DNA of 64,000 nucleotides, taken from contig CAIIXF020000011.1 in the NCBI GenBank assembly GCA_903813345.2, positions 23,045,754-23,109,753 of the forward strand, given 5' to 3'. Below the pieces are notes generated by a model. It ran no database searches, was not told where the DNA came from, and was given only the letters and a program-made list of their open reading frames with translations. This DNA is from Owenia fusiformis (Eukaryota; Annelida; Polychaeta; Sabellida; Oweniidae). Of this stretch, positions 6,401 to 55,000 are shown one piece after another (positions within the stretch are counted from its first letter, which is position 1; every line of letters begins with the position of its first letter). The position numbers were made by a program, and so were the translations under genes.

Positions 6401-6826
6401 TGCAAATAGGAACATAAACAGTTGACAAATATTGAGGCTTACTCTTGTCATTTGTCACTCTTCCAATAAAACTCCCCATTATTCCTCAATATGATACAGT
6501 TAAACCTGTACACTGACGCACCTATCTAATGGGGACAATGCTCAAATGCCACCATTTTTTAATCTGCTTCTGGACTTAAAATATGAACACACACCAATCA
6601 AAACACTTTTGGCTGATTCCAGTGAAATTTAGATTAGGTTTTACTGTAACTTGTATTGCAACAAAGACACATTGTTTAATTATCGAGAAAGTAATATATC
6701 TTACATCAAGCACAATGGACATATCTTTCATGTAGGATTCCTCTGTATCCATAAGTTCCTGAATGTGACTCTGCCTCTTGCGTTCAGTGGATGATGTGCT
6801 GGCGATGACACTAGCGTCATTAGTCC
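3489..6826 (-). CDS. ITSN: ITSN exons for the first half of the DH (RhoGEF) domain
   Basis: Exons 6705-6826, 6201-6307, 5673-5748 and 3489-3596, residues about 1493-1630. Key stretches: [20 protein letters not shown] (start of DH helix 1), [60 protein letters not shown]. These match the Cdc42-specific intersectin DH. The domain stops after HFKEVVK, before the LKPMQRxTRYPLL region that I could not find in 1-3488. The 6201-6307 exon is preceded by a partial tandem duplicate of itself. Confidence 0.93.
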
Positions 6827-37700: not shown

Positions 37701-40700
37701 ATGAAATTGTGCATGTTCATTTTTTCATTTGACTGTTTTTCCAAATAAAACAAGGCATTAACATGCACAATGTCACCACCTGCCATTTGTTACAGATGCA
37801 GAACACTGACTGCCAATAGCAGAACACCATCCACAAAAAAGTTGGAGGAATATGGAAGAAAATGCAAAAACCAAAAATTTAAATCTGCGTCCCTTGGTAC
37901 GTGGTAAGTCAGATATTTTTTTCATCCCAAGATTAAAATTTTTGGCGTTAATGACATCTGTTATAACAATGTGGTGGTGACATAAAAACTGGTTGGCAGT
38001 TTCTATATTCACTCTCTCAGTCTTACCCATTGGCTGTGCAGGAAATCCCCCACCCCCAACTGAAGTGACTGGATCCATGGTCATTGAGGCTGGTAGGGTC
38101 TTGGGCAGCTGGAACCCTTGCAGTTTCTTCTTGATGAGTGACATAGCAATGGAGAATTCTTTCTTGTCCATCTTGCCATCAGCGTTTAGGTCTGCTAGGC
38201 CCCTGTGAGAAGTGAATATAGAATCACTCGCTTGTTTCCTCTTTTTCATTGTTATTAATTATTTACTAAGTCACATTACAAATACATTTAAAATACATTT
38301 GTATTATCAATTATAAAATGGTTTCAAAAATTTTCTTTTTGTGTAAAATACAATCTTATTGTTAGCTTTCTTCTTAAAAGAGTGTATTTGTATCTTGACA
38401 AATAAATTAGCCATGAATTAACTCAGTCTAGTTGGTGGGAAATTGGGTCACATTTTTAGTACAACTTTCTTTTGTATAAAAATGAATTGTCATATATAGT
38501 CAGGTTCTAGTACATACCATATTTGGCCTAGGACTGGTGGTGGAAGACCGGACTGGAGAAAGAAATTTCGAGCTTGTTCTCCTAGAAATAAAAAGACAAT
38601 CAATTTTCACAAAATATTTTAGCAAAATAGCCTGTCGTATTGATGAATTTTGCACCTGCTGAAATCACAATTTCCAATTATTTTTTCTGATGTATTTTTC
38701 CCAATGAAACATCTGAAGCCTAATGTATAACATGTCGCAAAATGCAGAGATGGTCTGAGAAACAGAATGACAAACTCTTGTTATATACTTCATGTCCATC
38801 AAATCTTACCTGTGATAAAGCCCTGCATTGGTTTCAACTGGAAGAACTGGCTGTCATATCACAAAATGACAAACACTTCTATATACTTTATGTTTAACTC
38901 AAATCTTACCTGTGATAAAGTCCTGCATTGGTTTCAACTGGAAGAACTGGCTGTCATGTCACAAAATGACAAACACTTCTATATACTTTATGTTTAACTT
39001 AAATCTTACCTGTGATAAAGTCCTGCATTGGTTTCAACTGGAAGAACTGGCTGTCATGTCCAGTGTGGGAAATAAGCATTTTTGGTGTCTGGACAAATTT
39101 GTCCAGTCACTTTAAAACACTCTGGACAAATTTTTCTTTGACTGGTCAAAATTTTGACCAGTCAGTTTAAAAAATTAAATGAAATACATACTCCAGGGGG
39201 GAGGGAATAAATCATTCATCTTGCAGTATATAAAAATACATATTAATTAATACTAAAAGTCAAATTAATAACTGTAGAACTTTATTTCATGCATTAGGCC
39301 TATACATGTTGTACATGTTTTAGTGTTACATATTTTTCATTATGAGTTTAAGTTTGTCAATGACTTGTTCTTCGGACATGTCACACTCAGATTCAAATCC
39401 CTCGTCCTCTGACTCATCATCCACTACATCATTCTCAACATTCACATTTGCACCCACATTCACATTCTCATCCTCAGAATCAATCACACAAGCATCCTTA
39501 CCTTCATCCAGTTTCACACTGTCATCTTCCCTTTCCTCTGGTACACTATCATTCACATCAGTACCTGTCCCACCCATATCCCTGTCCTTCATTTTCATTC
39601 TTGTCAGACCAAGTCTCTCCCTTCTCTTACACACTTTCCTCCAATGATCAATGGAATTGTTAGGACTGAATTGATCAATGGCTGGTGTTCCGAGTTTAAC
39701 TTTCATTAAAGCACACAGTTTTTTATTTGACAGTTTTGTCTAGTCTTGCCCAAGTCGGTCTCTTTTATTTATCTTGATTTCTATTATGACCGCCTTGTAC
39801 TCAAGAGAAAGCCACGTGCTTTACCGACCCAATGTTTATGTCGGTAAAATTTGACCAATCAACGACGGTAGCTCATTATTATGCACGGTCAAAAACAAGT
39901 ACACTTTTCACCGGGACTTTTCAGGAACAAATCTTGCACGAATTCATCATGAAAATACAAATATTTTATCAGATAAATATCAATCAGAGTTTAGTGGATG
40001 CCGGAGCATCGATCTGATAACCGGAGGTGAGAAGATTTCAACAATAAACGTTGAAACGATCGCTGAACATGTAGACTGAGATTCAATCCGATCGACGACA
40101 ACATGACCCGCTACATTGGACTAGGTCTTCGTGCATTTTCATCGCGAAATCAGTTTTAAATCAACATTGAATCGCATGATTTAATTTATATTAATGACTC
40201 TTACCTTCCAATGTACATTTAATATAAATTACATAATATTTTGTAAGTTGTAACTCTAACGAAACTCGATCAGATCATTGAATATCAAGTCGTAGATGGG
40301 AAGTTTGTTTTGTTTATGAAGCTCAACCCGATATTGTTTGATTGGTCATTCAGCCTGAAGTCACACGTCGTGTCCACGCGATACCTGTCAATCAATAAGG
40401 TTTCGCGATACCCCTGATAGCGTAGGTATATATGGAAATCTCGAAACCGTTGAATCTTTAGCATAATATCAGCAGAGATGTATTGGATTGTACAAGGCGG
40501 TAGTAATTCAAGATCAGATAAGTAAAATACTGACTTGGGCAAAGCTAAGTTTTGTCCTCCTGTTTGTTTTTGTTAACTTCATTGTAGAGAACCCTCTCTC
40601 AATTGCCTGCACTTGATGCTGGGATAGATCGTATTAGATTTAGCGCCTTGCAAACTGTATGCAGTATTATGTCTACCGCTTCGAAAATCGAATCATTCTG

Positions 40701-43700
40701 CAGCATAAAACCGCGACCGGAAGCTATTATTTAGTAGCAAAACTACATGCGTTCGTTGTTTTATTGAAAGGTGTTCACAATTTTTAAGCGATCACAAATT
40801 TATCGTATTCTAGGCGGAATGAAAAATGAAAATAATTTTCGAACATCGAAGACAATTTCTCCTAAAATCTCGATGATTACTTAGGTCTGTTGGTAAGTAA
40901 TATGTCAGAGGCAAAGAGGGAAGATACGATCACGTCTCTGTAATATCTCTCCCAACAATTTTGACCAGAACGTTTGAAAAGGCCTCGACAGATATTTTTT
41001 CAGACTCGAAATTTGTCGATTGTCGAGTGCTTATTTCTCACACTGATGTCACAAAATGACAAACACTTCTACTTTATGTTTAAATCAAATCTTACCTGTG
41101 ATAAAGCCCTGCATTGGTTTTAACTGGAAGAACTGGCTATCATGCTTGGTTCTGTCCTCCATTGTGATTCGCCAGGGGTCAACTGAAGCAAATATATTTT
41201 AAAAGATGTCAAAGCAATTCAATTCAATTTGCATTATCATTTGTAGAATCATGGTGAGGATCTATATTTTTCTCTTGTATACCTTCAAACTTGGAGAAAC
41301 ACACATTTCTGTAAGATTAAGAATCACAGTTTCTATGAATGCTACATCAGAGCTTGATTTCATGGAATTTGAAATAGATATGTGAGCCAGGATATGCTAA
41401 ACATTTCCTTTATTTGCCCTAGCCTGTATCAATGAGCGTATGAGACAAACATTCAACTAAATAAAGAGGCAATGTGACATATTAATTAACTAGTCAGACA
41501 AGAGCCTGGAAAAAGTGAGCGATTCATATTTCAGTTATCCATGTGAGATTTCTGCAAGAGAAAGCACTGATAAACAAAATAACCTTGTACAGACATTCAA
41601 CAGATCAATCCAATACCAGCGCATGAGAATTATCAGCTTGTTCATTTGAAGGTAACAGGTATCAAATGTTCCACCTATACAGCAAAACCTGCCCGCATGT
41701 TTCATGTACAGTAGAACCTGTCTAATACGAACGCCTCTGGGACTGGCCAAGTGTTTGGATTAGTAGGTGTTCACATTTCAAGGTTTTATAAACATGTGCA
41801 TCAATGAGAAAATACATTGTAGACCAAGAAAAAGTGTTCACATTGAGAGGTATTCAGATGAGAGAACTGTTTGGATATGCAGGTTTTACTGTACCCAGGA
41901 CACACCCATTTTCTGAATGTTTTCAATTTGTGCTGAAGCGGGACTTCTCCCATTCATGCCATATAACCGTGAAAGGGATGATCATGCTCAGATTGTACCC
42001 ATCTATTTTCTTGAAACCCCATGGGAAAATCAGTTCTTATTACATGGAATCCTATTGATTAGCTGTCTGAATTTTCTGATTGCCCAAAATAAGACAATTT
42101 GTGTCATGCCATTATCTTTGTCATATGACTTGATAATAATCAGTGTTAACAAAACACTTCCCTTTACACAATGAAAATCTCCACAAAATTGCAATCTTAA
42201 CATAGACTTCTAATAAACTTACTAACTTGTATCAAGCAATGAAGATTTATTAAATGATGAATTTGTTTCTAAAATCAATGATATCTAAAGCAATACGATG
42301 ATTACGATAACTAGAAATATTCCAGTTTTCATAAGTCTGATTTTGCCTCTGTATAAAACACTTCATTCATACGTACATGTATGATGGTAATAATTACTAC
42401 TGGCCTTCCTGATTGTGCCAAATATGAACTTCAGATTTAATTGATCTGCTACAGCAAGTCTGTTTTTCCTAATTGCATTCATGTACAGTAAAACCTGTCT
42501 AATTCGAACACCAGTGGAAACACCCAAAAGTGTTTGGATTAGCAGGTGTTCATATGTCAAGGTTTCTTGAATACTATGCTGGTATGTGAGTCAGTAAGAT
42601 ATAACAAATTCAGGATGGAGAAAAAGTGTTCATATTAAGATGTGTTTGGATTAGAGAGGTGTTCAGAGATACAGGTTTTCACTGTAGTTATTTCTACATA
42701 ATTGTAGCTTTCTTATATCCTCTATATCATTATCTCTCCCCTCCCCCATCATTCTTTCTCAAATACTAGGGAATAATCAGAGATATGGTACAAGCCTACA
42801 ATACAATACAATATTCTAGAGCTTAGATATATTCTGCATGGAAGTCATAGGGACCTAATCTTACTGAGAAATGAATGATTGCCTGAGATTATAAATGCTC
42901 AATTTGAATATATGGGCTTTGCAACTAGGACTTGTGCAGTAAGTGCCATAGTCTTACAAATGCACTTAAACTTTAAAGCAAAGGAATTAAAAGGGAGGGA
43001 AAGAAGAGACATGAAGTTATCTTTTCAAAAATTATGTCAATGTCAATTTTTTCTTCACTGGTAATGTCCGAATTCTACTCGAAATGTCCAAAATCATCAA
43101 GCCTGAACTTTTCTTTTTTGACATATTCTGAAGGATAATTCTGAAAAATGGCTGCGATGATTGACTTTTCAGAAAATGGACATTAAATAGAATGAGAGCA
43201 AAAAATTCTAAAATTGAGGCAGTTTTTGATTTTTATTATTTGGACAATGTGAACTTCTTGATTCTCAAGATACCAATAGAACTAATATAATACCAGGCAT
43301 GATACTACACTATTGATTCCCAGCTTCTGTAAACCATAGATTATTGGATGGTGGGCGAGGTTAATAACACTGTCCAATAAATTATCAGTGGTGGATTCTT
43401 ACAACCAACGAAAAAAACAAAAGGCATTTATCAGAAGAATGACTCCAAGGAACGAAATTGATTTTAGCCCATTAAAAGAATTGGTGGCATTACTCATTGA
43501 CTCATTAAGAAATTGCAATGTTTTGTACTATTAAAGAGATTAGTTTCAAAGTGTTTGATATTTTGCTTCGTATATACATGTATGTTTCTTCATCTAAAAG
43601 AGAAATTAAGTAATATAGTATCTTTTAAAACAACTATTTTCAAATTTGTCAATTTTATTTAACCATTAAGAAGTTTCATCACTTTCAGTTAAGGTCGATG

Positions 43701-43760
43701 TTATGTTCAATGCAATACTTTATCTTGATCTTATTGGAGTTCCCTTTACATACCTGCCAT
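3489..43760 (-). CDS. ITSN: Intersectin (ITSN), 34 coding exons, C-terminus not in window
   Basis: Endocytic scaffold: EH domains bind NPF-motif proteins, SH3 domains bind dynamin, synaptojanin and WASP-type ligands, and DH-PH activates Cdc42 in long forms (family knowledge). Coding exons, 5' to 3' on the minus strand: 43754-43760, 41096-41182, 38518-38581, 38027-38202, 37052-37232, 36451-36762, 36161-36273, 35140-35268, 28060-28188, 27541-27677, 27011-27160, 26634-26774, 26101-26182, 25611-25643, 24538-24677, 24034-24194, 22961-23013, 22014-22364, 20897-21003, 19809-20155, 19484-19571, 18891-19037, 18346-18526, 18025-18167, 17435-17764, 16713-16850, 16013-16162, 15509-15640, 14452-14512, 12648-12854, 6705-6826, 6201-6307, 5673-5748, 3489-3596. 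All junctions are GT-AG and phase-consistent (4,890 nt). Order EH1-EH2-coiled coil-SH3A to E-DH is diagnostic. The start ATG at 43760 (context gagaaaATGg) gives MAVDPWRIT. The second half of DH, PH and C2 were not found. Confidence 0.95.
3661..5363 (+). mobile_element. Non-autonomous element with ATGTCCCCACCA ends and seven 162-bp internal repeats
   Basis: ATGTCCCCACCA near 3684 and its inverse TGGTGGGGACAT at about 5350 form short terminal inverted repeats. Inside are about seven tandem units of 155-163 bp (GACTTTACAGACAAGATTTT recurs near 3801, 3964, 4126, 4287, 4442, 4604, 4766), then a unique part and a GGACGGAC simple repeat with CCTAGG. No transposase. A shorter copy is at 13,027-13,892 in the same orientation. 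It lies in the ITSN intron between exons 3489-3596 and 5673-5748. Confidence 0.65.
6239..6438. repeat. 91-bp tandem duplication covering an ITSN splice acceptor and exon start
   Basis: The unit starting GTTGACAAATATTGAGGCT recurs at 6239-ish, 6330 and 6421, an exact 91-bp period; the third copy is partial. Copy one is the real DH exon. Copy two repeats the acceptor and the first part of the exon but has no donor and runs into the acceptor of copy one. Confidence 0.85.
7168..7255. repeat. Perfect 39-bp hairpin in an ITSN intron
   Basis: 7168-7206 and 7217-7255 are exact reverse complements, separated by a 10-nt spacer. No other copy was noticed. It could be a very young foldback/MITE or a hairpin RNA source. 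Confidence 0.8.
7256..9436. other. ITSN intron, nothing recognised
   Basis: AT-rich intron sequence between the DH exons and the SH3E exon. I see no coding exon, RNA gene or clear repeat here. Confidence 0.5.
9460..9677. repeat. 31-bp tandem array
   Basis: About seven degenerate copies of a 31-bp unit built on TTCTTGAGTCAAGTTATATT (GAGTCAA recurs at about 9487, 9518, 9550 and on). Confidence 0.75.
11223..11460. promoter_or_regulatory. Cluster of RFX X-box-like motifs in the ITSN intron
   Basis: GTTGCTATGGTAAC at 11401-11414 fits the palindromic X-box bound by RFX factors. Near matches are at 11251 (GTTGCTATGGTAAT), 11289 (GTTGCTATG) and 11436 (GTTGCTATGGAAAC, followed by GGTAACC). Four to five such sites in 240 bp is unusual for AT-rich intron. 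A regulatory role is inference. Flanking 9,678-11,222 and 11,461-12,405 show nothing else. Confidence 0.35.
12406..12445. repeat. 18-bp perfect hairpin
   Basis: CTGGCCTTTCATCAAGTT at 12406-12423 is followed by its exact reverse complement at 12428-12445. It lies about 115 nt beyond the possible intron-retention stop after the SH3E exon. Confidence 0.6.
12648..14512 (-). CDS. ITSN: ITSN exons for the Thr/Asn linker and SH3E
   Basis: Exon 14452-14512 encodes [20 protein letters not shown]. Exon 12648-12854 encodes SH3E (residues about 1424-1480): [50 protein letters not shown]. Reading through the donor at 12647 into the intron gives about 29 more codons and a stop at 12559-12561. This could make a short isoform ending after SH3E, like ITSN-S of vertebrates, but I see no canonical AATAAA nearby on this strand. 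Confidence 0.93.
13027..13892 (+). mobile_element. Second, shorter copy of the ATGTCCCCACCA-ended element
   Basis: Same ends and flanking signature (AAAATGTCCCCACCAAGTGG near 13050; GTGGTGGGGACATAAAA ending about 13896) and the same unique part and GGACGGAC tract as the 3.7-5.4 kb copy, but only about two to three 162-bp internal units. It occupies the intron between the SH3E exon and 14452-14512, same orientation. Confidence 0.65.
14148..14430. repeat. Degenerate GACATGATGATAATATG-type repeat
   Basis: Low-complexity tandem array of ATGATGACATGATGATAATA motifs just upstream (genomic left) of the 14452-14512 ITSN exon donor. Confidence 0.65.
15509..16162 (-). CDS. ITSN: ITSN exons for SH3D
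   Basis: Exons 16013-16162 and 15509-15640. SH3D spans residues about 1319-1376: [40 protein letters not shown], then [19 protein letters not shown]. The split after GELT and the [17 protein letters not shown] sequence match vertebrate SH3D closely. The remaining codons are a Ser/Pro linker. Confidence 0.95.
16420..16510. repeat. Short tandem repeat of TGTCACATTGAGG units
   Basis: Several 11-17-bp units (GTGTCACATTGAGGTGTCTC and variants) in the intron upstream of SH3D. Nothing else was seen in the flanking intron. Confidence 0.45.
16713..17764 (-). CDS. ITSN: ITSN exons for a long linker between SH3C and SH3D
   Basis: Exons 17435-17764 (110 codons, phase 0) and 16713-16850 (46 codons, phase 0). 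The first has no counterpart I recall in vertebrate ITSN: it is Ser/Thr/Lys/Glu-rich with two SIYxT motifs ([18 protein letters not shown]) and ends SLSLFRRK. The second is Thr/Ala-rich. Both are multiples of three and phase 0-0, so each could be skipped as a cassette. I accept them as coding because frames are open across their whole length, splice sites are good and phases match on both sides. Function unknown. Confidence 0.78.
18025..18167 (-). CDS. ITSN: ITSN exon for most of SH3C
   Basis: Encodes residues about 1106-1153: [40 protein letters not shown]. With the 3' end of the previous exon this forms a complete SH3 with WW and FPANYV motifs. The phase-1 join (a + gc) restores a serine in YSSSEPGDL. 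Confidence 0.94.
18346..19571 (-). CDS. ITSN: ITSN exons for SH3B and the start of SH3C
   Basis: Exons 19484-19571 (linker [20 protein letters not shown]), 18891-19037 and 18346-18526. SH3B (residues about 1003-1055) reads [49 protein letters not shown]; it is very close to vertebrate SH3B, including the unusual YPW and KDNHL. The last exon also encodes a linker and the first strand of SH3C ([11 protein letters not shown]). The intron between 18346 and 18891 holds an 18605-18812 MITE. Confidence 0.94.
18605..18812. mobile_element. Small TIR MITE (TACTGTATAAGTGGTA ends)
   Basis: TACTGTATAAGTGGTA at 18605 and its near reverse complement TTACCACTTATACAGTA ending at 18812 bound about 208 bp. TA at the ends fits a Tc1/mariner/pogo-type insertion. 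In the intron between the two SH3B exons. Confidence 0.6.
19809..21003 (-). CDS. ITSN: ITSN exons for SH3A and a hexapeptide-repeat linker
   Basis: Exons 20897-21003 and 19809-20155. SH3A spans residues about 826-885: [48 protein letters not shown], with the ALYDY-equivalent, the Trp and the WFPxxY motif in place. After SH3A comes a run of about seven DSF(A/T/G)K-type hexapeptides (SDSFAK, 18-bp units, 19,908-20,035), then a Gly/Ser-rich tail. The repeat is in frame and Ser/Phe/Lys-rich; it is likely variable in copy number. Confidence 0.93.
20198..20678. mobile_element. hAT-like MITE with 8-bp target duplication
   Basis: Ends TAGTGTTGTCGCGA / TCGCGACAACACTA. Flanks TCATGAAG (20190-20197) and TCATGAAC (20679-20686) match at 7 of 8 positions, as expected of a slightly aged hAT target duplication. 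The interior carries extra GATGTACATCGATG-type inverted motifs and no real gene. In the ITSN intron inside SH3A. Confidence 0.75.
21004..22013. other. ITSN intron, nothing recognised
   Basis: Intron between the Ser/Thr linker exon and the first SH3A exon. No repeats, hairpins or coding signal that I could support. Confidence 0.5.
22014..23013 (-). CDS. ITSN: ITSN exons for a Ser/Thr-rich linker before SH3A
   Basis: Exons 22961-23013 and 22014-22364 encode residues about 681-815: a disordered Ser/Thr/Ala-rich stretch with repeated aromatic motifs ([35 protein letters not shown]). Spaced W/F motifs of this type resemble adaptor or clathrin-binding short motifs known in endocytic linkers; that function is inference. 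In human ITSN1 comparable W-containing sequence lies between SH3A and SH3B, so position differs here. Phase fits both neighbours. Confidence 0.85.
23020..24000 (+). repeat. Tandem array of about 145-bp units rich in AAATGGCGGCCATTTT
   Basis: Five to six degenerate units (ATGGCNGCCATTTTGAAA recurs near 23171, 23277, 23422, 23569, 23714, 23800), each with GAACCAAATCC and TTTGAGTTATCAAAG blocks. It ends in a GGACGGACGAAC simple repeat. The left edge (CAACTCCACGGAGTAGCAAA near 23,060) recurs at about 63,740, suggesting another copy starts there. No coding potential. Confidence 0.65.
24034..28188 (-). CDS. ITSN: ITSN exons for the central KLERQ coiled-coil region
   Basis: Eight exons (28060-28188, 27541-27677, 27011-27160, 26634-26774, 26101-26182, 25611-25643, 24538-24677, 24034-24194) encode residues about 357-680. 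It starts with [20 protein letters not shown], nearly the vertebrate sequence. Then come E/R/K/Q-rich heptads ([19 protein letters not shown]) and ends with [12 protein letters not shown]. In the family this region drives dimerisation and Eps15/SNAP-25 binding. The 25611-25643 exon is a 33-nt microexon (phase 1 on both sides), so it could be skipped without shifting the frame. Confidence 0.93.
24678..25610. other. ITSN intron, nothing recognised
   Basis: AT-rich intron between the 24538-24677 exon and the 33-nt microexon. A pair of similar 25,800-26,000 blocks (TTCTCACTTA..GTGAAGT..ATGGAAATT) lies just beyond, a weak direct repeat. Confidence 0.4.
27757..27897. repeat. GC-rich GGCACCGAAACGGCGTCGAAA-type repeat in an intron
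   Basis: Short inverted and direct copies of CGCCGTTTCGGCA/GGCACCGAAACGG within 140 bp of otherwise AT-rich intron, 80 nt upstream of the 27541-27677 coiled-coil exon on the gene's strand. It looks like the core of a small element, but no target duplication was seen. Confidence 0.35.
28746..28755. repeat. Target site duplication, 3' side of the LINE
   Basis: GTCTACTAAA next to the poly-T (poly-A on the element strand). The same ten bases occur at 34413-34422, on the other side of the element. Confidence 0.55.
28944..32697 (-). pseudogene. LINE ORF2: endonuclease-reverse transcriptase, one frameshift and one stop
   Basis: Reading leftwards: an exonuclease-endonuclease-phosphatase fold ([32 protein letters not shown]), then reverse transcriptase ([61 protein letters not shown]), then a Cys/His-bearing C-terminal part ([18 protein letters not shown]). 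The frame breaks at an A-run (plus-strand T run about 30527-30533) and again at an in-frame TGA (30021-30023), after which the same frame resumes. No ATG precedes the conserved INVRGLQ start; an in-frame stop lies just upstream of it (about 32,698), so the start codon is lost or non-AUG. Confidence 0.9.
33338..34114 (-). CDS. LINE ORF1 protein (coiled coil plus RRM-like), intact frame
   Basis: 258 codons from the ATG at 34114 ([19 protein letters not shown]) to the stop. A Lys/Glu-rich N-terminus is followed by a coiled coil ([20 protein letters not shown]) and an RRM-like RNA-binding part ([38 protein letters not shown]). This layout matches L1-clade ORF1 proteins that coat the element RNA. 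No frameshift or stop. Confidence 0.8.
   Translation of the reverse strand: MEETKQTSLDNYIKRKRNQIEDEEYTDAIQELKPKEKREKKEMPALTKEDFLTIFPDLFQANFKKVIQQEDFQDTLKTALKPLLKEQEAKITQLDTEITKTNDKVIDLEKQLQYEQNQRLSLQLRIIGLPDEHKENLANKLVMFAAKKLDHKLDITDFTIYRNGTYTSGKDRPTTVRFNNMADRISFFKCREKLYKQKEKIYINEELPPKLAKIMAEGRKMKKENKLHKIWSYRGSVFVKSKESDEPREVTDLTKLGL
34413..34422. repeat. Target site duplication, 5' side of the LINE
   Basis: GTCTACTAAA, identical to 28746-28755. It sets the 5' end of the element at 34412 on the minus strand. Confidence 0.55.
34617..35135. repeat. 99-bp tandem array abutting an ITSN splice donor
   Basis: Five to six units; the last four are exactly 99 bp apart (ATGGTYCATGA at 34803, 34902, 35001, 35100). 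The final unit runs to within a few bases of the GT donor of the 35140-35268 exon, so the array begins at the intron's 5' edge on the gene strand. Because 99 is divisible by three, long spurious frames stay open through it. Confidence 0.85.
35140..36273 (-). CDS. ITSN: ITSN exons for the Ala/Pro/Gly linker between EH2 and coiled coil
   Basis: Exons 36161-36273 and 35140-35268 encode residues about 276-356. The first starts RGRAGSGIN, like the vertebrate RVRSGSG sequence after EH2, and continues as Ala-Pro-Gly-rich sequence. The second carries [18 protein letters not shown] and an acidic TLEEEAAVQ. The donor of the second exon directly abuts a 99-bp tandem array. Confidence 0.88.
35269..36160. 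other. ITSN intron, nothing recognised
   Basis: Intron between the two Ala/Pro linker exons; no repeat or coding signal that I can support. Confidence 0.5.
36451..37232 (-). CDS. ITSN: ITSN exons for the Met/Gly-rich linker and EH2 domain
   Basis: Exon 37052-37232 encodes a Met-Gly-Pro-rich spacer ([17 protein letters not shown]..). Exon 36451-36762 encodes EH2, residues about 172-275: [40 protein letters not shown], the EF-hand loop [12 protein letters not shown], then [11 protein letters not shown] and [11 protein letters not shown]. The Trp that contacts NPF ligands is present (QVWQLSD). The match to vertebrate EH2 is strong across the whole exon. Confidence 0.93.
36822..36900. repeat. 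Fragment of an ATGTCACCACCTGC dispersed repeat
   Basis: GCATTAACATG..AAAATGTCACCACCTGC and GCTACAGATGCTGA are shared with copies at 37,754 and 43,827. Truncated on the right. Confidence 0.5.
37754..37984. mobile_element. 230-bp MITE with ATGTCACCACC ends
   Basis: ATGTCACCACC near 37,770 and its inverse GTGGTGACAT near 37,973-37,982 bound a non-coding insert. The ends resemble those of the ATGTCCCCACCA family (3.7 and 13.0 kb). In an ITSN intron between EH1 and EH2. Confidence 0.5.
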
Positions 43761-43789
43761 TTTCTCAGGATTGAAACACCACTCTGTCC
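38027..43789 (-). CDS. ITSN: ITSN exons for the N-terminus and EH1 domain
   Basis: Exons 43754-43789 (36 nt, ATG at 43760-43758), 41096-41182, 38518-38581 and 38027-38202 encode residues about 1-111. EH1 shows [30 protein letters not shown] and the conserved Trp in [14 protein letters not shown]. The EF-hand loop [12 protein letters not shown] keeps the Ca-binding pattern, followed by [14 protein letters not shown]. The 36-nt exon is open upstream of the ATG too (..TEWCFNPEK), so a longer N-terminus from an upstream exon cannot be excluded. I chose the ATG because intersectins usually begin a few residues before this DPW/DIW motif. The second exon sits at one end of a tandem duplication (38.77-41.15 kb). 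Confidence 0.93.
38766..39060. repeat. 100-bp tandem copies of the 3' half of the EH1 exon plus donor
   Basis: Units 38766-38860, 38861-38960 and 38961-39060 each contain the exon segment encoding [14 protein letters not shown], its GT donor and intron flank. The functional exon (41096-41182) forms the fourth unit, now separated by an inserted hAT-like element. The copies lack the exon's 5' part and acceptor. Confidence 0.9.
39061..41045. mobile_element. hAT-like element, 1,985 bp, with 5-bp target duplication
   Basis: Ends CAGTGTGGGAAATAAGCA / TGCTTATTTCTCACACTG. ATGTC flanks both sides (39056-39060, 41046-41050). The empty site is known: adjacent tandem units carry TGTCATGTCACAAAATG uninterrupted. 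A 126-aa acidic frame on the minus strand (39326-39706) may be a decayed transposase C-terminus. The same ends recur at 45588-46634. Confidence 0.85.
39326..39706 (-). CDS. Acidic 126-aa frame inside the hAT-like element, possible transposase C-terminus
   Basis: Starts at a real ATG; the N-terminal part ([20 protein letters not shown]) resembles the short motif at the end of hAT transposase-derived proteins of the ZNF862/KIAA1586 type. It then becomes Asp/Glu/Val-rich. No DDE catalytic core is present in the element. Alternatively a captured host fragment or chance frame. Confidence 0.35.
   Translation of the reverse strand: MKVKLGTPAIDQFSPNNSIDHWRKVCKRRERLGLTRMKMKDRDMGGTGTDVNDSVPEEREDDSVKLDEGKDACVIDSEDENVNVGANVNVENDVVDDESEDEGFESECDMSEEQVIDKLKLIMKNM
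41709..41896. mobile_element. Pogo/Tigger-like MITE (CAGTARAACCTGTCTAAT ends)
   Basis: ACAGTAGAACCTGTCTAAT at the left and GCAGGTTTTACTGTA at the right, with internal GTGTTTGGATTAG and GTGTTCACATT motifs. The same family appears at 42,484-42,690, 51,108-51,275 and possibly 6,497-6,655 and 54,790-54,906. TA at the ends fits the Tc1/mariner-pogo group. Confidence 0.6.
42484..42690. mobile_element. Second pogo/Tigger-like MITE
   Basis: TACAGTAAAACCTGTCTAAT start and ACAGGTTTTCACTGTA end, with the GTGTTTGGATTAGCAGGTGT core. In ITSN intron 1. The stretch 42,700-43,753 next to it shows nothing I can name. Confidence 0.6.
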
Positions 43790-43826
43790 CTACAATAGAA
43801 ATAATAAAAAAATCTTTAAAAATTTA

Positions 43827-43935
43827 ACAATGTATTAACATGCAAAATGTCACCATCTGCCATTTACAGATGCTGAACACCAATCGCCAAACACCAACTG
43901 CCACATGCTGAACACCATCCACAAAACAGTTGGAG
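43827..43935. repeat. Third copy of the ATGTCACCAYCTGC dispersed repeat
   Basis: Shares ATTAACATGCAAAATGTCACC, TTTACAGATGCTGAACACC and CACCATCCACAAAACAGTTGG with the 37,754 copy; it lies just upstream of the ITSN start exon. Confidence 0.5.
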
Positions 43936-44697
43936 ACTAAAACAATATATGTCAACACTTCAGTTGGTCACATAAAACAGTAGTTTCAATAAGACTTTTA
44001 CTTATTAAATTATGTAAATATCTTATTTATGCATTTCTATGCAAAACTGAGGTAACTAGAAATCCTTTTTGTAGGGAATACATACAACAAAAATGTTTTT
44101 CAAAATTTAGAATGAGTAAATCAATAAATAAATCAAAGGTTGTACTAATTCATTAGTCTAATACAAAATCTCTTAACCCCCCCCCCCTCCTACAGCATAA
44201 CAAGTTGATGCTAAATTTAACAAATGAGGGAATTTCCCTTTTCACAATTTTCTAGATACATGGATACAATAATAGATGAACAATAGTTAAACGTGAATAA
44301 TAGTTAAAGAGGTATTTTAAATTTGCTACTATGTACAGTTACAAAAAAGTAAAGTAAAAATGAAGAATTGGTAAATTTGAAAAAATGAGCTGGCATTCTG
44401 ACTGATTTGTGTTTAGCTTAAATCAAGAGTCTCACATGATTCTATATTTTGCATCAAATATGATGTGCCATAAGTCACTTGTGAAGTCATTGGGTATGAG
44501 GATGATTTAAAGACAGAATCAGAGCTATATCAATTGGGTGAAAAATTGCAAGCAACATGCAAAATTGATCTAGCATGATACATGTACCATTTTATATATA
44601 TGTAAACCTAAACCTACAGTTGTTAATCTTATGATCTGAAGAATTGATGAAAGGAAATGAACCGACACGCCAACAGTCCAAATTCTGACATCTATGC

Positions 44698-45314
44698 TAG
44701 AGGTGTAACACAGTCCAAAAAAATTTTGGTACGGTACGGAAAGGTACAAATGGTCTCAGGACACGGTACTTTTGGGATGGGACAGATGCAAGGGTATGAG
44801 GATGGCAGTTTCACTTTTCAAAATTATATTCAGAAATAAAAAATGTCAATTTAAATCTAACATAACACATCTGCCGCGAATGTGATCAGCATTAGACATA
44901 ATCTGCATGGTGTACTATCACCAATTGGAGTCCCAAAATACTTCCAAACTGCAGACTTAGATGCCAGCTCGATTTTTCAATTTCTTTTCTACATCCGGCA
45001 TATTGATGCACTCTATTTGAGAACGACGACGAAGAAATTTACGATCAAGCATTACCATCTACCTGAAATAGCGAGTTGTTTATAACACTTTTCAATGCCA
45101 AGAAGTGTAATCTCAGGTACAAGGTAAGTGAAAATATTTATTTTTCAGAACGAAATCGGAGGTGTTCCTTGCTATCTTTACACGTTTTTATGCATTATAG
45201 GTACGGAATTTATGTACCGATATTGTTCCAATATTAACCCTTTGTGTCCTGTGTCCAGAACCGAAGCATCTCGACCAAAATTTGGTCCAATATCGGGAAA
45301 CCGTAACACCCCTA
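44698..45314. mobile_element. hAT-like MITE with perfect 8-bp target duplication
   Basis: Ends TAGAGGTGTAACAC / GTAACACCCCTA; ATCTATGC duplicated at 44690-44697 and 45315-45322. No transposase. It lies in the ITSN-CRYZL1 divergent region. Confidence 0.82.
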
Positions 45315-45587
45315 ATCTATGCAGATGATTGAACTCTCAAGATTTAAATAGAGAATGTAGAATAAGGGAAAATAACCTGTAAAATGTTTCTGAGATGTGA
45401 TCAAAATGCAAAGTTAGCTCAAAAAGAGTGAATTCATACTGCCAACAAAAATGAAATACCTCAACAGATTTTGCTTGGCAGCATAAGAGCATTTTTGTTT
45501 TGCAGAGCATTTTATGTGATATAATGATAAAAAAATATATTTGAACTTACTTCAAATTCCTCATACAATGATTACAGTATATGGTCT

Positions 45588-45922
45588 CAGTGTGGGAAAT
45601 AAGCATTTTTTGTGCCTGGACAAATCTGTCCAGTCACTTTGAAACACTCCAGACAAATTTTTTTTTGACTGGTCAAAATTTTGATCAGACAGTTTGAAAA
45701 CACACTGGACAATTTTTTGTACTTGGTCAATATATTAACAGGCCTGTCAACTTGGGAACACCTAACATGAGTGACTTGGAAATGTTGAACACCTCCCCTC
45801 AAAATCTGAACACCTTGATCCAAATTTTGAACACCTTGGTTTACATTTTATTACATCTTGCCAAATTTTGAACACCTCAAATTTTTCGCGCTCGCTACGC
45901 TTGCGTTTCAAACATCCTTCAA

Positions 45923-45956
<34 letters not shown>

Positions 45957-46634
45957 AGGTACGAAAAATTTCGAACGGAATGAGTGACATATCCGTGATT
46001 CGCGTGAAAAGCCCGAACAAAATGCGTACGTTTTTTTCCCGTCGTTCGTATTTTTGCTGTGTAGACGATCTTTTTTTGAAAATTTTCTACAGAAAGATTT
46101 TTGCTTGACAATTACCAGGTAAAATGCGTATTTGCGAAAAATTTCGAACGGAATGCGTGACATATCCGTGATTCGCGTGAAAAGTCCGAACGAAATGTGT
46201 ACGTTTTTTTCCCGTCGTTCGTATTTTTGCTGTGTAGACGATCTTTTTTTGAAAATTTTCTACAGAAAGATTTTTGCTTGACAATTACCAGGTAAAATGC
46301 GTATTTGCGTGACATTTTCTGTCACGCAAAAATAACTGGCGTGACTTCAAATTCTTCAGCAAATGCGTGACAAATACGCAAATTGCGGGACAGTTGACAG
46401 GCCTGTATTAAAAATCAAAAAATATATACATAGAAACAGAGGGGGGGGGGGGTATAAAATGACTGAAATTGTTAATCATTACATTTTTTATTTTGCATTG
46501 TTTCATTTGTCGACAACTTCTTCCTCAGAAGAAGGCCAACTTATATTCTTTCATTTCATATGTAAAACAAAATTCATTGTCTCTTGTCTCAGCAAAATCT
46601 ATCTGGACAATTTTGGTGCTTATTTCCCACACTG
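45588..46634. mobile_element. Second CAGTGTGGGAAATAAGC element, carrying a nested insertion
   Basis: CAGTGTGGGAAATAAGCA at 45588 and TGCTTATTTCCCACACTG ending at 46634; TGGTCT flanks both sides (45582-45587, 46635-46640). The left 150 bp match the 39,061 element. Without the nested 45739-46405 insert it would be about 380 bp. Confidence 0.82.
45739..46405. mobile_element. Nested TIR element (CAGGCCTGTCAACT) with TATTAA duplication
   Basis: CAGGCCTGTCAACT begins at 45739; its reverse complement ends at 46405; TATTAA is duplicated at 45733-45738 and 46406-46411. Inside are a 33-G run (45923-45955) and two 173-bp tandem copies (about 45962-46134 and 46135-46307). It inserted into the hAT-like copy, giving relative ages. 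Confidence 0.78.
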
Positions 46635-46754
46635 TGGTCTGAATACAGAGTTCCTCATTGTGCATTGCCTTTATTTTAAAAACAAATCTCCTATATGTGT
46701 ATTTAAAAAAATTAAATGCTCTTCTGCTAATAATACTAATATAATCACTCTATT

Positions 46755-46930
46755 GCGAGTAGGTAGTTACCAGTTTTGCCACCAGGTGGCTGATTCGGGG
46801 GAAATAACATGGCGGGGTATTACAAAATTCCCATAAACTTGAATATTCATCATTTTTAGTGGTTCACTTTTCATATTACCCTTATGTATCTGATAGTTCT
46901 ACAAATCAAAATATGTCCAGTAAAAGAAAG
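46755..46930 (+). repeat. Truncated copy of the GCGAGTAGGTAGTTACCAG repeat
   Basis: GCGAGTAGGTAGTTACCAGT, CCAGGTGGCTGATTCGGG and AAACTTGAATATT are shared with the complete element at 53,350-53,790. Confidence 0.55.
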
Positions 46931-47639
46931 GAGACAAGAGAGGTTTTAAGAAATGGCGATGACAGGTCAAATGGACAGTAAATCAACAAATATGAACAAT
47001 AATTTTAATCTGTACCACCATGTTCAACAGAGGGACCAACAGACACCTTTTTAACCTTTAAATAATATAGGACATAGAGATAAAATATGGTGAATGAAGT
47101 TTTGAACCTTGACATATGGGATAACTTTGATATGGGGCTATTAGGGCCATTGAGCTATTTAGACATTGGCTTATAATTTCAGTCTACAAATTCCGCCATG
47201 TTTGTATTTTGAAAATTTTAGAATAAATTGAAATCTCCAACAGCCAAGATCTAATCCAAGATGGCCGAGCCTGGATATTCAAATTATTAGACATGGTCCA
47301 AATAACCTCATGGTTGAAATAGCCCCACGTCGAGGTAACCCCATAAGTTTGACAACTTCCCCTAATGGCTCATTATCATCGCTATTGTAAATGTGGTGGT
47401 AGACACAGATCCGGAGCCAGATTCAGCCCCTATTGGTAGTATGCTCAAAGGATAAATGGGAAGATGAGACACGAGCCAAAAATGCTACATCAAAAAAATG
47501 ACCACCCAAAAATATGACCCTTGTACTGACCTTTATTTTTTCCATCTGTCAGACATTGATTGATCAATATTTACTCTGTAATCCCTTCTTTATGTATAAG
47601 TTTGAATGGTTGCATGATATCCATTATTGACGCTGTAAT

Positions 47640-48060
47640 TCGACTTTTCCCGGGACATTTATTTCAAATTTTCAGAGTGTAAAGATAATGGAGCACTTCG
47701 GTAATTTCCGGCAGTGTCCGATGTTGTTCGTCTCTCAAATTATGTCACATCGCAACAAATAGCCAATGAAAGTAAAGAATCGCGTACCGTTGTTATTGTT
47801 TCTACGAGAGTTTAAAGAAACGTCATTGGACTTCTCGGTAATCTCTGATGTGACGTCATCCGGAGTGGCGTCACATTCTCAGAAAAAGGCATTTGACTTT
47901 GGGAATAATAATTTGTACAATGGAGATAGCCGAAGCGCTCCATTAAATATCCGCTCGCTTATTTTATGCTTTTATCAACAGACACTTTCTCAGATGAGTG
48001 GCTTTAGTGATTGGAGTTGAAGCTAACAACAGTATGCATCGTTTGAGGTATGACATGTGA
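47640..48060. promoter_or_regulatory. Candidate bidirectional promoter of ITSN and CRYZL1
   Basis: CCAAT at 47763-47767 and ATTGG (inverse CCAAT) at 47825-47829 flank a more GC-rich stretch. TGACGTCA, a full CRE palindrome, is at 47851-47858, followed by CCGGAG and GGCGTCAC; TTTCCGGCA (ETS-like) is at 47705. The block lies between the start exons of two divergent genes and is free of recognised transposon ends. A splice-donor-like TTTGAG|GTATGA follows at about 48044 on the plus strand. Promoter function is inference. Confidence 0.45.
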
Positions 48061-48241
48061 TATTTATTGATAAACTGACTCCAAAATCAAGGAAAAATAA
48101 ATTTTCCGAAAACCGTGTGTCTTGTCCTTGAGTATATTTATTGAGCCTAGACACAGAGGAGGATCTGGCGGACGTCCGTGGTGGTAGATACTGATGGAGA
48201 CATTGTACTTTGATTATTCGGTCATCAATCAATGATTTTGA

Positions 48242-49012
48242 CGATGATTACAGAGTTTCTGTTGAATGAGGATCAGGATCATTCAAGTTAGGCCAATAGA
48301 TTAAACTCGAGTCAAGTGAACATCTTGGAAAACTCAAATCTGAATGATTCAAAGTTGGCATATAAACTATGATAGCTGGGCATATACTGAATTTAATTAC
48401 ATGTAAGTATACTTACTTCGATGCAATAGTCTTTTGCTGCTGATGGAGAATCCTAGGTTGAATTAATTGGAGAAATCTTCTAGAATACTGGAAAGTTCAA
48501 ATTTTAACCGCCATCTTGGATTTTTCGATCACACCTCTTTTCGAGAAGAAAGGCTAAATATAGTAAATTACAGGATACCAATCACTCTAAAACTTTGTAT
48601 GCAGTTTCATCTATATATAATCCATTAGTAAAATCATAATACACACTTAATGGCTACATACACGCTGCAAATAACGTCCAAATGTGACAGGACTACTATT
48701 TCCGATAAAATCAGACTGAGCTAGCGTTTATTCAAAGTTGCCCTATAGTTACTTTCGTATAATTATTTTTACCTTATTATCGTCATAAATTTGAGTATAA
48801 TATCTAGCCTGTTTACTTTTCTGTTGTTATATTGGATGGGCAGTTATATTTATATCATTGCGATGGTGACTATATTATAATATCACACAAATTGAAATAC
48901 TAATAGACGCATCAAAACTCGCTGCATTTAAAAGTGGGCGGGGCGTTTCAAGATATGTCTGAAATTGAATCAAAATTCAAGTAATAAAGACAATATAACA
49001 AAGATAACAGCA
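48242..49012. other. Region upstream of the CRYZL1 start codon
   Basis: No repeat or coding exon recognised. A possible 3' splice site (GATAACAG) ends two bases before the CRYZL1 ATG, so the 5'UTR may be joined here from an exon nearer the candidate promoter. Confidence 0.35.
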
Positions 49013-52000
49013 ATGAAGGTTATCTACAGAGAACTTTCCACGTCTGATAAAGATATCAAGATTAGTTTGGATACAAATGTATGACTTTAGATTCCTGTAT
49101 AGGTGTCGTAATCTATGATTCTTACATTGAGAAATTCTTTTCCATTCAAAATCAAATTCTCAGTGCTGAAAGTGCTTGTATGTATTTGCAGTGCTCGTGA
49201 TAGAGCTCAAGGAATATTAGGCATAGTGAGCTGTTTACACTGTTTAATGGTTTTAGTCTCATACTCTTTCAATTCAGTGTAATGACCCGAGGCGACTCGG
49301 AGGAGTTGTAGTGTAACTACCCCCATAAATGTGGGGTTATTTTGAGTTTTTTTGATATTTAGGACTTGAGAAACAAATGTCCTAAATATGAAAAAACTCA
49401 AAATAACCCCACATTTATGGGGGTATGTGTAACAAGCCAGATACTGGACAAAAAACAGAACAATGTAGATAGCTCCTTATGCTGAAACTCTTGAGTTTTA
49501 TCATGAGCACTGCAAAAACATTGTACATGTACTACATGTAGTGCAATCAGCTGAAACTGAAGTTGCAACTTATTATTGAGGATCATTACACATAACCCCC
49601 ATAAGTTGGGTTAATTCAACCCCACAACTTCTGTATTACAGTCTTGGGTTTAACAGGTTGCCAGTAGTTGACTTACATGTAAAGCTGAATTTTATCTAAA
49701 TAACCATTAATCCAGCTAATTTTCAACCCCAAGATTTCAATACACAAGCGGTTGTGGGGTTGATTGTTCAAATCAATCCCACATTTATGGGCGATTTGAA
49801 AAATCATGGGCTTTCAATAGTTGAAAGCCCATGGAAAAATCAACCCCACATTTATGGGGGTGTTACACATGAACTGAACCAAAAACCATCTTGCCTCATG
49901 TTGTAAATGTTTGAGTTTACCTACCTGGGGCAAGTGGAGTCATCTGTCAACTAGATTGAAAGCCCATGGTATTATCATTCATAGATAATCAAATTAAACC
50001 ATCAATATATTTTTAGCCATATTTCAAATCTCTAAAATAATTGTTTGAGGCTGATAATGTAATTTTTGCTCTGTTTGTTTCAGGTAGAGCTTCCTAAACA
50101 TGATGATACCAGTGTTGTAGTTCAGGTTAAAGCATGTGGGCTCTCAAATATCTCTAATAAGGTTTGTGTACATGTACTTTCTTTCTAGTTCGTCTTTTAA
50201 TCTGTGGACAATAACAATATTTAATGATCTTTGGGTGCCTCCAGGAAATGACCAATGTCGGGATTAGAATCTTAGACCCTGGCAGGTTGTTCTTCAAGTT
50301 CATGTATGTTGAAGCAAACCAGACAACATTAAAAATCTATGGTATCTGGCCGTTTGAAGGATTTTAAAGTAATTTTCTGTAATACATCCACATGGTGAAT
50401 GGTGACTGTTTATCAGTGAAGAAGAACATGAACTGTAAATTTAAAAATGAAACTTAAATTTGTAGGTTCTGAATCTCCTTCACTCAACTACAAAGTCAGA
50501 GCAATGTCTTTACAGCGCAACATTTGAAGTGACGGGCCTCGTCACCCAAGTTGGATGCAGTGTGACAGGAATTCAGCCTGGAGATAGAGTCGCAGGTAAG
50601 AGCTCTTAGATTTCAGAATTAAACATGTACAGGGAAACCGCCTACTTGATACTCCTTTAGAAAGTTTCGTTTCAGGTTTCGGGTTAATGGATAGTGGTGT
50701 AAGACAAGTTTTGTTCTGAAGGAGCTACCCAGAATAAATATAGTTTTCAGATCAAATCAAATGAAATGTTGGTAAATGAGTAGAAAAGAAGTAGTTAACG
50801 AAGATTTAGAATGCAGGGATGTCTGAATCTATTAAGATAGAAAGGGGAATTTATTCCAGATAACCTAAAACTCGAATGATGATCCTGATTTCAGTTCTGA
50901 TGGACCTTTTCTAAAGTAGGCATGATGAAATGATGAGAGCAAAATCTTGTATAAAATCATGATGTTCCCTTTTCTATCCATTCAACTTCAACAAACCTGT
51001 ATAGCCTAATTTCTATTGCTTATTTCAGGATTTTGTCCATTGGACAGTGAAATGTCAGCTTGTGCAGATTTCTGTGTACTTAAAGAACATAATATTGGTG
51101 AGTAAGTACAGTAAAACCTGTCTAAGTGGAACACCTGTGGTACCTCCAAAAAGTGTTCCACTTGGGGGGTGCTCCACTTATAGAGGTGTCAGTTTGTCTT
51201 GGGACTCTGAAATGTGTTCCACTAACAGAGATGTTCCACTTCTAGAGGTGTTCCACTTTGCAGGTCTCACTGTACATGTATGAGAAATTATGGATTGCAT
51301 CTTTGATACACACACAAAATAATGTCTGAAAAAGTGGCAATATGCAAGAAGATACCTACCCACATATATTTTTAACAAATAAATACAAAATTAGGTTTTT
51401 AGATTAACGTGAATGATTTATTTCCATAATTTTAATACATGTACTCTTATTACATAACTTCTTGTTTTCAGTTAAGATACCAGAAGGTGTGGAATTTGAA
51501 ATGGCAGCTGCTTGTATAGGGGACTGTCTGAAAGCATACATAGCACTACACTATCTCGCCAGACTCTGTAGTGGGGATACCCTCCTTGTGATAGATGGCG
51601 CCTCATCAGCTGGGACAATGGTAATACAGTTAGCTCAACTTTGGGGAGCAAAGGTGATTTAAACCTATAATTTATTAAAGATAAAGGTTTGTAAGAAATG
51701 AGATGATATTATGAAGCTACCCATTATATAGAGTATGATAAGTTTGCAGACAATCGCATCCCCCCCTGACCAAACTTTTTGGCGATCGCACCCCTTCCGG
51801 ACTGAAAGCTAGCTACGCTCCTGATGGCTGGTTGGTTAACAGGAGACAGTCATAAATCTACATCCCATTCATAATTAACTCTAATAGCATCCCATAAAAT
51901 ATAACTTCAATGAGGTCAGAAAGATCTTGTCAAAATCAAAATTGTAATGCCAAATACATTTTGATACTTGAGTTAACCGCCTCATACAATGATGCTACTC

Positions 52001-55000
52001 CCATTGACTCCTCTATTTCCATAGTATTTGCATAGTAACTTGTCAAAAATGTGAAATTAAAATGATGTTAGTATAATCAATATTGTGTATATCAATGTTG
52101 TGTTTGTTTAATGCAGGTCATGGCAACAGTGAGCTGTGCAGAAGAAAGAAGTTTCCTTGAGACTCTTCAACCACCTTTAGGTAAGTTTCCACAGCTTGAT
52201 AAATTACCTCTCCTTGATAAATTACCACCTCTTGACAAGTTACCATCCCTTGGTAGGTAACCTCTTCTAGTTGTTACCACCCCTTTGCTATATTAACTCC
52301 TCTTGTTTACTTTTTAAAATTCTGCTAAATTGCTTATCTTGGTTAGCTACCATCTTTTGCTTTATAACCAGATTTTGAAAAATTACCTCTAGTTCCACCT
52401 TATGTTAAATGTGGGCGTTACCTACCAAGGGATGGTAACTCGTCAAAAGGAGGTAATTTATCAAGGAGAGGTGATATTTCAAGCGGTGGTAAATCTTCTT
52501 CCTTTTTTTCTGAACACTATTTACCCATTCCTGTCTGTGCAAGTGTGTGATAAACCTCTCGTGGTTATGGTTGACAATGTACTTGGTTTCTTGAATTTTG
52601 AATCAATAGTAAACATTTAAAATGTTGTTAGAATGAAATGTTGGTTTGTGTTTACTTCAAATGAAGACAATACAATTTTATTTTTCAGCACAAATTATAG
52701 ATTCTGGTGACAAGACACGTCCTATATCTAGCAGTGTATTGGAGGAGACTGGGGGCATAGGAGTTGATTGTGTCATAGATAATGGGGGTAAGATAATGTT
52801 AGGATAATGTCATTTTTTAAATTCTTGTCTTTATCTCTTTAATTTTTATTGAGAAAATACTCTCTATAGAACTATATACCAGGACTATATTAACTGTACA
52901 GATAAAAAGGAATATAAATTTTTCAGCACGTTTATTTACGAGTGAAGATGATATGATTATTGCCGGAGAAACCAACAAATCCCCATCTTGCCACAAGTAT
53001 GACATCATATCCTGTCTAGGGGTTGGTGGACGGTGGGTGACATCACAACCAGATCTTCAGGTAAAGACAATGGATTTAAAATTGTTGAACATTAAACCCA
53101 AGAGTGAATTATTACTGGCACTGCAAGTGGAATGTCAGCAATATTGCAAGAGAAATTAGTTGATTTTGCAAACTAGTAGAATTAAATAATTAGTTAATTA
53201 AATGTCATCCTTATGATTAAAAGTTATATCCCCCAAAAATGTGCTCTGCACGAATGATGAAGTAAGGACACAGAAGGGAGATGTGAAAGAAATCATATTT
53301 GGTATTCTGCTGCTGCTGCCATCTATATATCAGCCTAAAATCAATGACTTAATTACCCAAATGCGAGTAGGTAGTTACCAGTTTCACCACTAGGTGGCTG
53401 ATTCGGGTCAATTAACATGGCAGGTATATAAGAAAGTTCCCTTAAACTTGAATATTATTAATTTAAGTGGGTCAATTTTCATATAACCCTTATGTGTCTG
53501 ATACTTATACTAATGAACATATGTCCAGTAAAGCAAAATATTATATGTCCACTAAAAGAAAAGATATTTCATTTTTTGTGATTTTATAGCATGGGGTCTA
53601 TGGGGAATCTCCCCGAGCTAGAAGTCACATATTCAAAGAAAATTAATTTTTCAAAGTTGATAAACACTTTTTAAAACCACATTTCTAGATGTAATTTTAC
53701 ATGTAGATTTCAAATATGATATTACTTCGACTGAATTTTGAATTTTTAATGACGTAAATCAAGATTATTTCTACTCGCATCTGGGTTATTGTGAACGTAT
53801 ACCGCGTGCCTTCTATTACACTACACACCAGAATCATTGACTATATCAAGGAGCTATTTAATGATGTCTGGGCACTTTACATGTGTCTGAGATGATACAT
53901 AAAATAAATTCAGAACTTTTCAATTGTTTTGTTTTGGGTGTGAGGGGTGGCCCACTCCGCCTAGAAAATTTTACAATTTTAAAACACTATTTAGTGCTCT
54001 CTGGGCACTTTCAAAGTGTATGAGTCAATTAAAAAATTGAGAAAATCACTATTTTTTTCAACTTTTTTGGAGGGGAATCCAGGGGGGCGAGGGTGCCAGA
54101 GGGGGAGGTGGGGTGGGGTAGGTCTCCCGAAGGGGAGCAAGTGTTAGTCCCCCAGAAACATTGACTATATGAAGGAGCTACCTGTATGTGATGATGTCTG
54201 GGCATTTGGACACTTTAAAAGTGTCTGAGACAATACATAATATAAATTCAGAACTTTTCCATTGTATTGAGGGGGGTGTGAGGGGTGGCCCAATCCCTCT
54301 AGAAAATTTTACAATTTTAAGATGCTATTTGATGCTTTCTGGGCACTTTAAAGAGATGATGAAAAAAAAATTATCAAAAAAATATTTTTCAATTTTTTTT
54401 TTTAATTTTTAAATTTTTTTTGGGGGGTGTCAAAGGGGGGTGCGGTCGCACCCATCGCACCCCCCCCCCCATCTGACGGGCCTGACTACACATAATCTGA
54501 TTGTTCATGTCATATTCATTTCAGCTGGATCCACTAGACTCGGAATGTCTGTTTCTGCGCTCTGCAAGTGTTTGTTTCCTGTTCCCCGAGTCTTGGCTTC
54601 TCTCTAATTCCCAACAAGGTCGTTACCAGCGTATCCTTTATAATAACTCAAAATTATTGATAAAATAAATTACTCTCCTGAAATTACATTGAAGTAATTA
54701 TTTTATGAAATATTTCATGAATGAATTATATTACATTTATTAACCAAAACTAGTTATATTTATATCAGTATTCTGATGACTTTTTATACAGTGAAACATG
54801 TGAGGTGGAGCACCTGAGTGTGAGACACTAAGAGCCCTGAGACCTCCCAAATTGAACACTTATATAGAGGTACCAAAGATGTTCCATTTTAACAGGTTTT
54901 ACTGTACCATAAAATAAGTGCAGTGCAGGTATTTTGGATGACACAATATACATATGATATGACACAATATAAAAATGTAACATTCTATTATGATATATAA

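Follow-up and report, generated by a model that had tools for sequence, protein, structure and literature searches.

Why do two genes lie head to head in an annelid worm in the same way as in human? The question is raised by a 64,000-nucleotide stretch of the Owenia fusiformis genome (the window; C11:23045754-23109753, in a genome of 498 Mb of which C11 makes up 37.3 Mb), where the intersectin gene ITSN on the minus strand and CRYZL1 on the plus strand point away from each other. The answer that we prefer, with a probability of about one half, is that the two genes became divergent neighbours no later than the bilaterian ancestor and that a compact shared promoter, in Owenia probably the segment 48181-49012, has held them in this arrangement.

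The start codons lie at 43760 (ITSN, minus strand) and 49013 (CRYZL1, plus strand), with a separation of 5,252 bp, and both gene models join in phase. This agrees with an earlier note on this DNA, which had described the pair as head to head and about 5.25 kb apart. The first coding exon of ITSN (43754-43789, minus strand) has 29 nt of 5' untranslated region (UTR) followed by ATGGCAG, with the ATG at 43760-43758 and the donor CAG/GTATGT (a slash marks the splice junction). The reading frame continues into exon 2 (41096-41182, minus strand) and from there into exon 3, whose first base on the minus strand is 38581. Exon 2 encodes the N-terminal part of the EH1 domain and was identified with tblastn (64.5% identity, expectation value (E) 7.7e-8), with a human ITSN1 query. 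The EH2 domain is in an open reading frame (ORF) at 36432-36782 on the minus strand (Pfam EH, 3.7e-20), for which the best solved relative is Intersectin-1 (PDB 2kgr, E 5.6e-37). The SH3 domains and the start of the RhoGEF (DH) domain follow at 6579-20158 on the minus strand, recognised by tblastn and by Pfam SH3_1 matches over the cut-off in four ORFs; the RhoGEF piece has a weak Pfam match (0.0066, under the cut-off). The minus-strand gene therefore has the intersectin architecture of two EH domains, a coiled coil, a series of SH3 domains and a DH domain, the match to the last being weak.

On the plus strand, CRYZL1 exon 1 (49013-49078) is in frame with exon 2 at 50084, and the joined product aligns without gaps to the start of human CRYZL1. 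When the joined and partly trimmed exon pieces were compared with the PDB, human 'Quinone oxidoreductase-like protein 1' (7nd2_C) was matched with E 4.3e-51, whereas 17 other sequences had 4.3e-7 or weaker. By this measure the gene is nearer to CRYZL1 than to enzymes of the CRYZ/PIG3 type. Pfam alone is insufficient to name it, because two single ORFs gave no match and the ADH_zinc_N and ADH_N hits of the joined query both stayed under the cut-offs. Nor did Pfam give a match in the two plus-strand frames of 49-64 kb, out of three, that were scanned, probably because the gene is split into short exons.

Both genes were searched for in the whole genome. All seven CRYZL1 matches are within the window. 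An ITSN query made up of the two EH domains and some of the SH3 domains gave 17 matches, of which six are inside the window; the other 11 have 34-50% identity and are presumably EPS15-like and other SH3 relatives. No second locus was found genome-wide for either gene, in an assembly that may contain gaps.

The earlier note had also stated that no gene lies between the two, and we find the same. A six-frame Pfam search of 43790-48400 gave no match at E <= 0.01, and 43700-49100 contains no Rfam match at the gathering score and no transfer RNA (tRNA). An intervening gene was rejected on these grounds.

The human pair, at 21q22.11, is like the Owenia pair in its genes, their adjacency and their orientation, if we are right in taking human CRYZL1 to be on the minus strand and ITSN1 on the plus strand. 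The earlier note had called the two immediate divergent neighbours whose transcription starts almost touch, and published human coordinates bear out the adjacency: CRYZL1 occupies 34961647-35014160 and ITSN1 35014783-35261609, so that the transcripts are 623 bp apart, in a table that gives no strands (PMC3279367). The genes are also listed side by side in cattle and human gene lists (PMC3689702, PMC5102301). The spacing differs, with 623 bp between transcripts in human and 5,252 bp between start codons in Owenia. ITSN and CRYZL1 are thus immediate neighbours in distant lineages, the comparison being of two species, Owenia and human.

Such a pair could simply belong to a larger block that has kept its order. 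As an internal control, the genome was searched for five other human 21q22 genes, including the flanking genes DONSON and ATP5O, which in human are 633 bp and 14 kb from the pair (from the table in PMC3279367). In Owenia, both ATP5PO matches fall at 21.70 Mb of C11, a distance of 1.39 Mb from the CRYZL1 ATG, and both DONSON matches are on C11 at 14.89 Mb, 8.2 Mb away. TMEM50, which stands for human TMEM50A and B alike, has a single match (C11, 21.55 Mb) that is interrupted by stops, and MRPS6 has one weak match on C11 at 29.15 Mb (28.9 bits, the cut-off being 27). Both GART matches are on C1. Four of the five genes are therefore on C11, which by its share of the genome length has a P of about 1.5e-4, and 1.4-8.2 Mb separate them from the CRYZL1 start. 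The linkage is old, but gene order has been shuffled and the surrounding order has not been kept wholesale. Of the three human junctions tested (DONSON-CRYZL1, CRYZL1-ITSN1 and ITSN1-ATP5PO), only the divergent CRYZL1-ITSN1 junction is intact, in a control limited to three junctions and to a pair chosen because it is intact. Since four of the five genes are linked and yet megabases away, the divergent junction has outlived the shuffling that broke both adjoining junctions.

It could have done so passively, with the genes either remaining ancestral neighbours or meeting again by chance within a conserved linkage group, and with no selection on their adjacency. The conserved chromosome-scale linkage raises the odds of a pair staying together or re-meeting, and this pair was picked for looking conserved. 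However, at both other junctions beside it the genes now lie over 1 Mb apart, and the human spacing of 623 bp is inside the usual limit for shared promoters (PMC12672016). We regard passive survival as unlikely, though with an appreciable chance of being correct. The earlier note had proposed a shared promoter or regulatory constraint. The control, with one of three junctions intact, makes constraint on the junction likelier; the ITSN start site, the shared use of 48181-49012 and selection on that promoter are what we infer.

The larger spacing in Owenia is explained in part by repeats. At least 2,263 of the 5,252 bp between the start codons (at least 43%) is multi-copy DNA. Three multi-copy stretches (44697-45316, 45730-46408 and 46743-46929) were mapped by a genome-wide DNA search that gave 56 matches, with 40 of 7585 candidates scored. 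Closer to CRYZL1 is a mobile element of about 777 bp (47404-48180), for which the same kind of search gave 43 matches, with 40 of 360 candidates scored: the locus itself, 40 long copies at 88-94% identity and two short pieces. It has an 11-bp direct repeat, GTGGTGGTAGA, on both flanks, which looks like a target-site duplication. The element is high in CpG and carries a TGACGTCA palindrome resembling a cyclic-AMP response element (CRE), and could be taken for a promoter. The CpG-rich region at 47.6-48.1 kb with the CRE palindrome was considered as a promoter and rejected, because it is part of this element, which has at least 40 long copies. One of the repeats contains 33 consecutive G (45923-45955). 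Since repeats make up much of the 5.25 kb, which probably lies in an ITSN 5' UTR intron, this distance is no argument against a shared promoter.

Next to CRYZL1 there remain about 830 bp without mapped repeats (48181-49012, no strand assigned), which form the candidate shared promoter. A genome search with 48190-49012 returned one match, the segment itself, which is therefore single-copy. The observed/expected CpG ratio of the segment is 0.83, compared with a median of 0.41 for the window, and 15.5% of the individual windows scored reach 0.83; for 48500-49012 the ratio is 1.10, reached by 6.6%. A YY1-type motif, AAGATGGCGG, occurs at 48508-48517 on the minus strand, that is, in the ITSN sense (two matches in 64 kb against 0.03 expected by shuffling), and a GC box, GGGCGGGGC, at 48936-48944 on the plus strand, 68 bp before the CRYZL1 ATG (one match in 64 kb against 0.02 expected), although both motifs were picked after looking and the expectations are a guide only. 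The other AAGATGGCGG match, at 36455, falls within the ITSN EH2 frame, and a looser YY1-type pattern, AAnATGGCG, has nine matches in 64 kb, three of them in the gap. A shared promoter within the 830 bp beside CRYZL1 is plausible on this sequence evidence.

We hypothesise that the divergent arrangement of ITSN and CRYZL1 was present in the bilaterian ancestor, and that a compact bidirectional promoter, here probably this segment, keeps them together. CRYZL1 would start at its right end, and ITSN inside it, by way of a non-coding first exon (about 48417-48530) that would be spliced, across an intron of about 4.6 kb, to the short coding exon whose upstream edge is at 43789. The distance from start to start would then be about 0.4-0.5 kb, a prediction that rests on ordinary splice signals but is comparable to the 623 bp in human, and most of the 5.25 kb would be an ITSN 5' UTR intron enlarged by mobile elements. 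A break within the shared segment would strip one gene of its promoter. This would explain why the junction survives while the neighbours are shuffled.

The upstream exon is suggested by the acceptor TTTTATTATTTCTATTGTAG/GG, 29 nt before the ITSN ATG, which ranks among the best 1.9% of 6808 AGs scored across the window. The putative first exon itself (48417-48530, minus strand) is predicted, with a guessed start, and ends in the donor GAA/GTAAGT with a score of 7.5. For comparison, the acceptor of ITSN exon 2 scores poorly, and that of CRYZL1 exon 2 outscores the acceptor before the ITSN ATG.

Several points weigh against the shared promoter, in addition to the small number of junctions and the choice of motifs noted above. 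The CpG enrichment of the segment is modest. The proposal draws on a single invertebrate, in which the ITSN start is predicted. About 130 of the 6808 AGs are equally good acceptors, or about one per kb of strand, and the chance of finding one within 75 nt of the ITSN ATG is roughly 7%; the reading frame is also open for 63 nt upstream of this ATG. Donors scoring >=7 occur about 1.4 times per kb of strand, which makes the donor at 48417 an ordinary one; on the minus strand of the gap it is outscored by those at 48535, 47788, 47531 and 44436 and equalled by that at 45551. The splice scores are themselves to be read as approximate. Finally, bidirectional pairs are described as generally not kept between invertebrates and vertebrates, where they are 'disorganised' (PMC3403606).

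The same splice signals bear on a second alternative, that the two genes have independent promoters, one for ITSN shortly before 43.8 kb and one for CRYZL1 near 48.95 kb, and that the closeness of the human genes is a separate matter. The upstream ITSN exon is a prediction with an ordinary donor, and an acceptor in that position has a probability of roughly 7% by chance, both of which fit independent starts. An acceptor in the top 1.9% just before the ATG, and intervening DNA that is at least 43% repeat, do not, and we consider two separate promoters improbable.

The divergent or bidirectional pairs surveyed in PMC12672016 and PMC3403606 are, like human CRYZL1-ITSN1, head to head and less than 1 kb apart. 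They are mostly kept within vertebrates, whereas the ITSN-CRYZL1 pair survives in an annelid; 66 of 1399 human head-to-head pairs are reported as conserved in fly (PMC12672016). The non-vertebrates of the two surveys are fly, worm and yeast (PMC3403606, PMC12672016). Ancient microsynteny is itself a known phenomenon (PMC13317027, citing Irimia et al. 2012), and such pairs are, like ITSN-CRYZL1, neighbours common to an invertebrate and human. The conclusion that ITSN-CRYZL1 is a further example of it is well supported. Among the papers listed in literature searches, none deals with the ITSN-CRYZL1 pairing in its title or the opening of its abstract, and neither gene is mentioned in PMC2447486 or PMC8851819.

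Pairs named in PMC13317027 involve developmental genes (Pax1/9, Foxa, Tbx2/3, Egr), which ITSN-CRYZL1 does not. For ancient pairs near developmental genes, a common explanation is long-range constraint, in which an enhancer belonging to one gene is placed within its neighbour or extends across it as a regulatory block, with no shared core promoter (PMC13317027). In favour of this, the ITSN locus is large and its introns are long; against it, the two genes are head to head and in human only a short distance apart. Neither ITSN nor CRYZL1 is known as a developmental regulator, and there is only a slight chance that long-range constraint is the explanation here.

Intersectin is an endocytic scaffold and acts in endocytosis. 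CRYZL1 is one of the five FERRY proteins, and FERRY, a Rab5 effector, tethers messenger RNAs to early endosomes via Rab5 (PMC11428642). The two products work at adjacent steps of one trafficking route. The earlier note had called the genes functionally unrelated, a description that is doubtful and should be dropped, because CRYZL1 is a FERRY subunit and intersectin is endocytic. We hypothesise that here lies a functional reason for joint expression, and a functional link is thereby suggested between two genes that are both on human chromosome 21. More speculatively, and with the odds against it, one short promoter may since the bilaterian ancestor have coupled intersectin output to CRYZL1 (FERRY) output, as a very old transcriptional unit of endocytic traffic. 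A pair that has outlasted the shuffling of its own neighbourhood offers a clear-cut test of the idea that two genes can be bound together throughout bilaterian history by a promoter they share.

Other features of the two loci can be noted. Just upstream of ITSN exon 3 are three tandem units of about 100 bp (38762-39060, 94% match), each copying the 3' half of ITSN exon 2 together with its donor ([DG]FITG/gtaag); it is possible that they are decoy or alternative exons. An ITSN intron also contains a long interspersed nuclear element (LINE)-like element (28947-34225, minus strand, the same strand as ITSN), recognised by eye, with endonuclease/reverse-transcriptase-like ORFs of 724, 358, 295 and 181 amino acids.

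The further exons of CRYZL1, all on the plus strand and with approximate bounds from tblastn and frames read by eye, are 50084-50161, ~50466-50595, ~51472-51656, ~52117-52180, ~52689-52788, ~52927-53060, ~54525-54618 and ~55068-55113. The last ~35 codons, or last exon, were not found in the window or in the next 10 kb. Intron 1 contains, at 49310-49870, short palindromic words repeated around CCCCACATTTATGGGG. Further along the window, 59200-61550 contains units that recur on both strands and read NPRWPPKW-like when translated, and is likely a diverged satellite or a cluster of elements.

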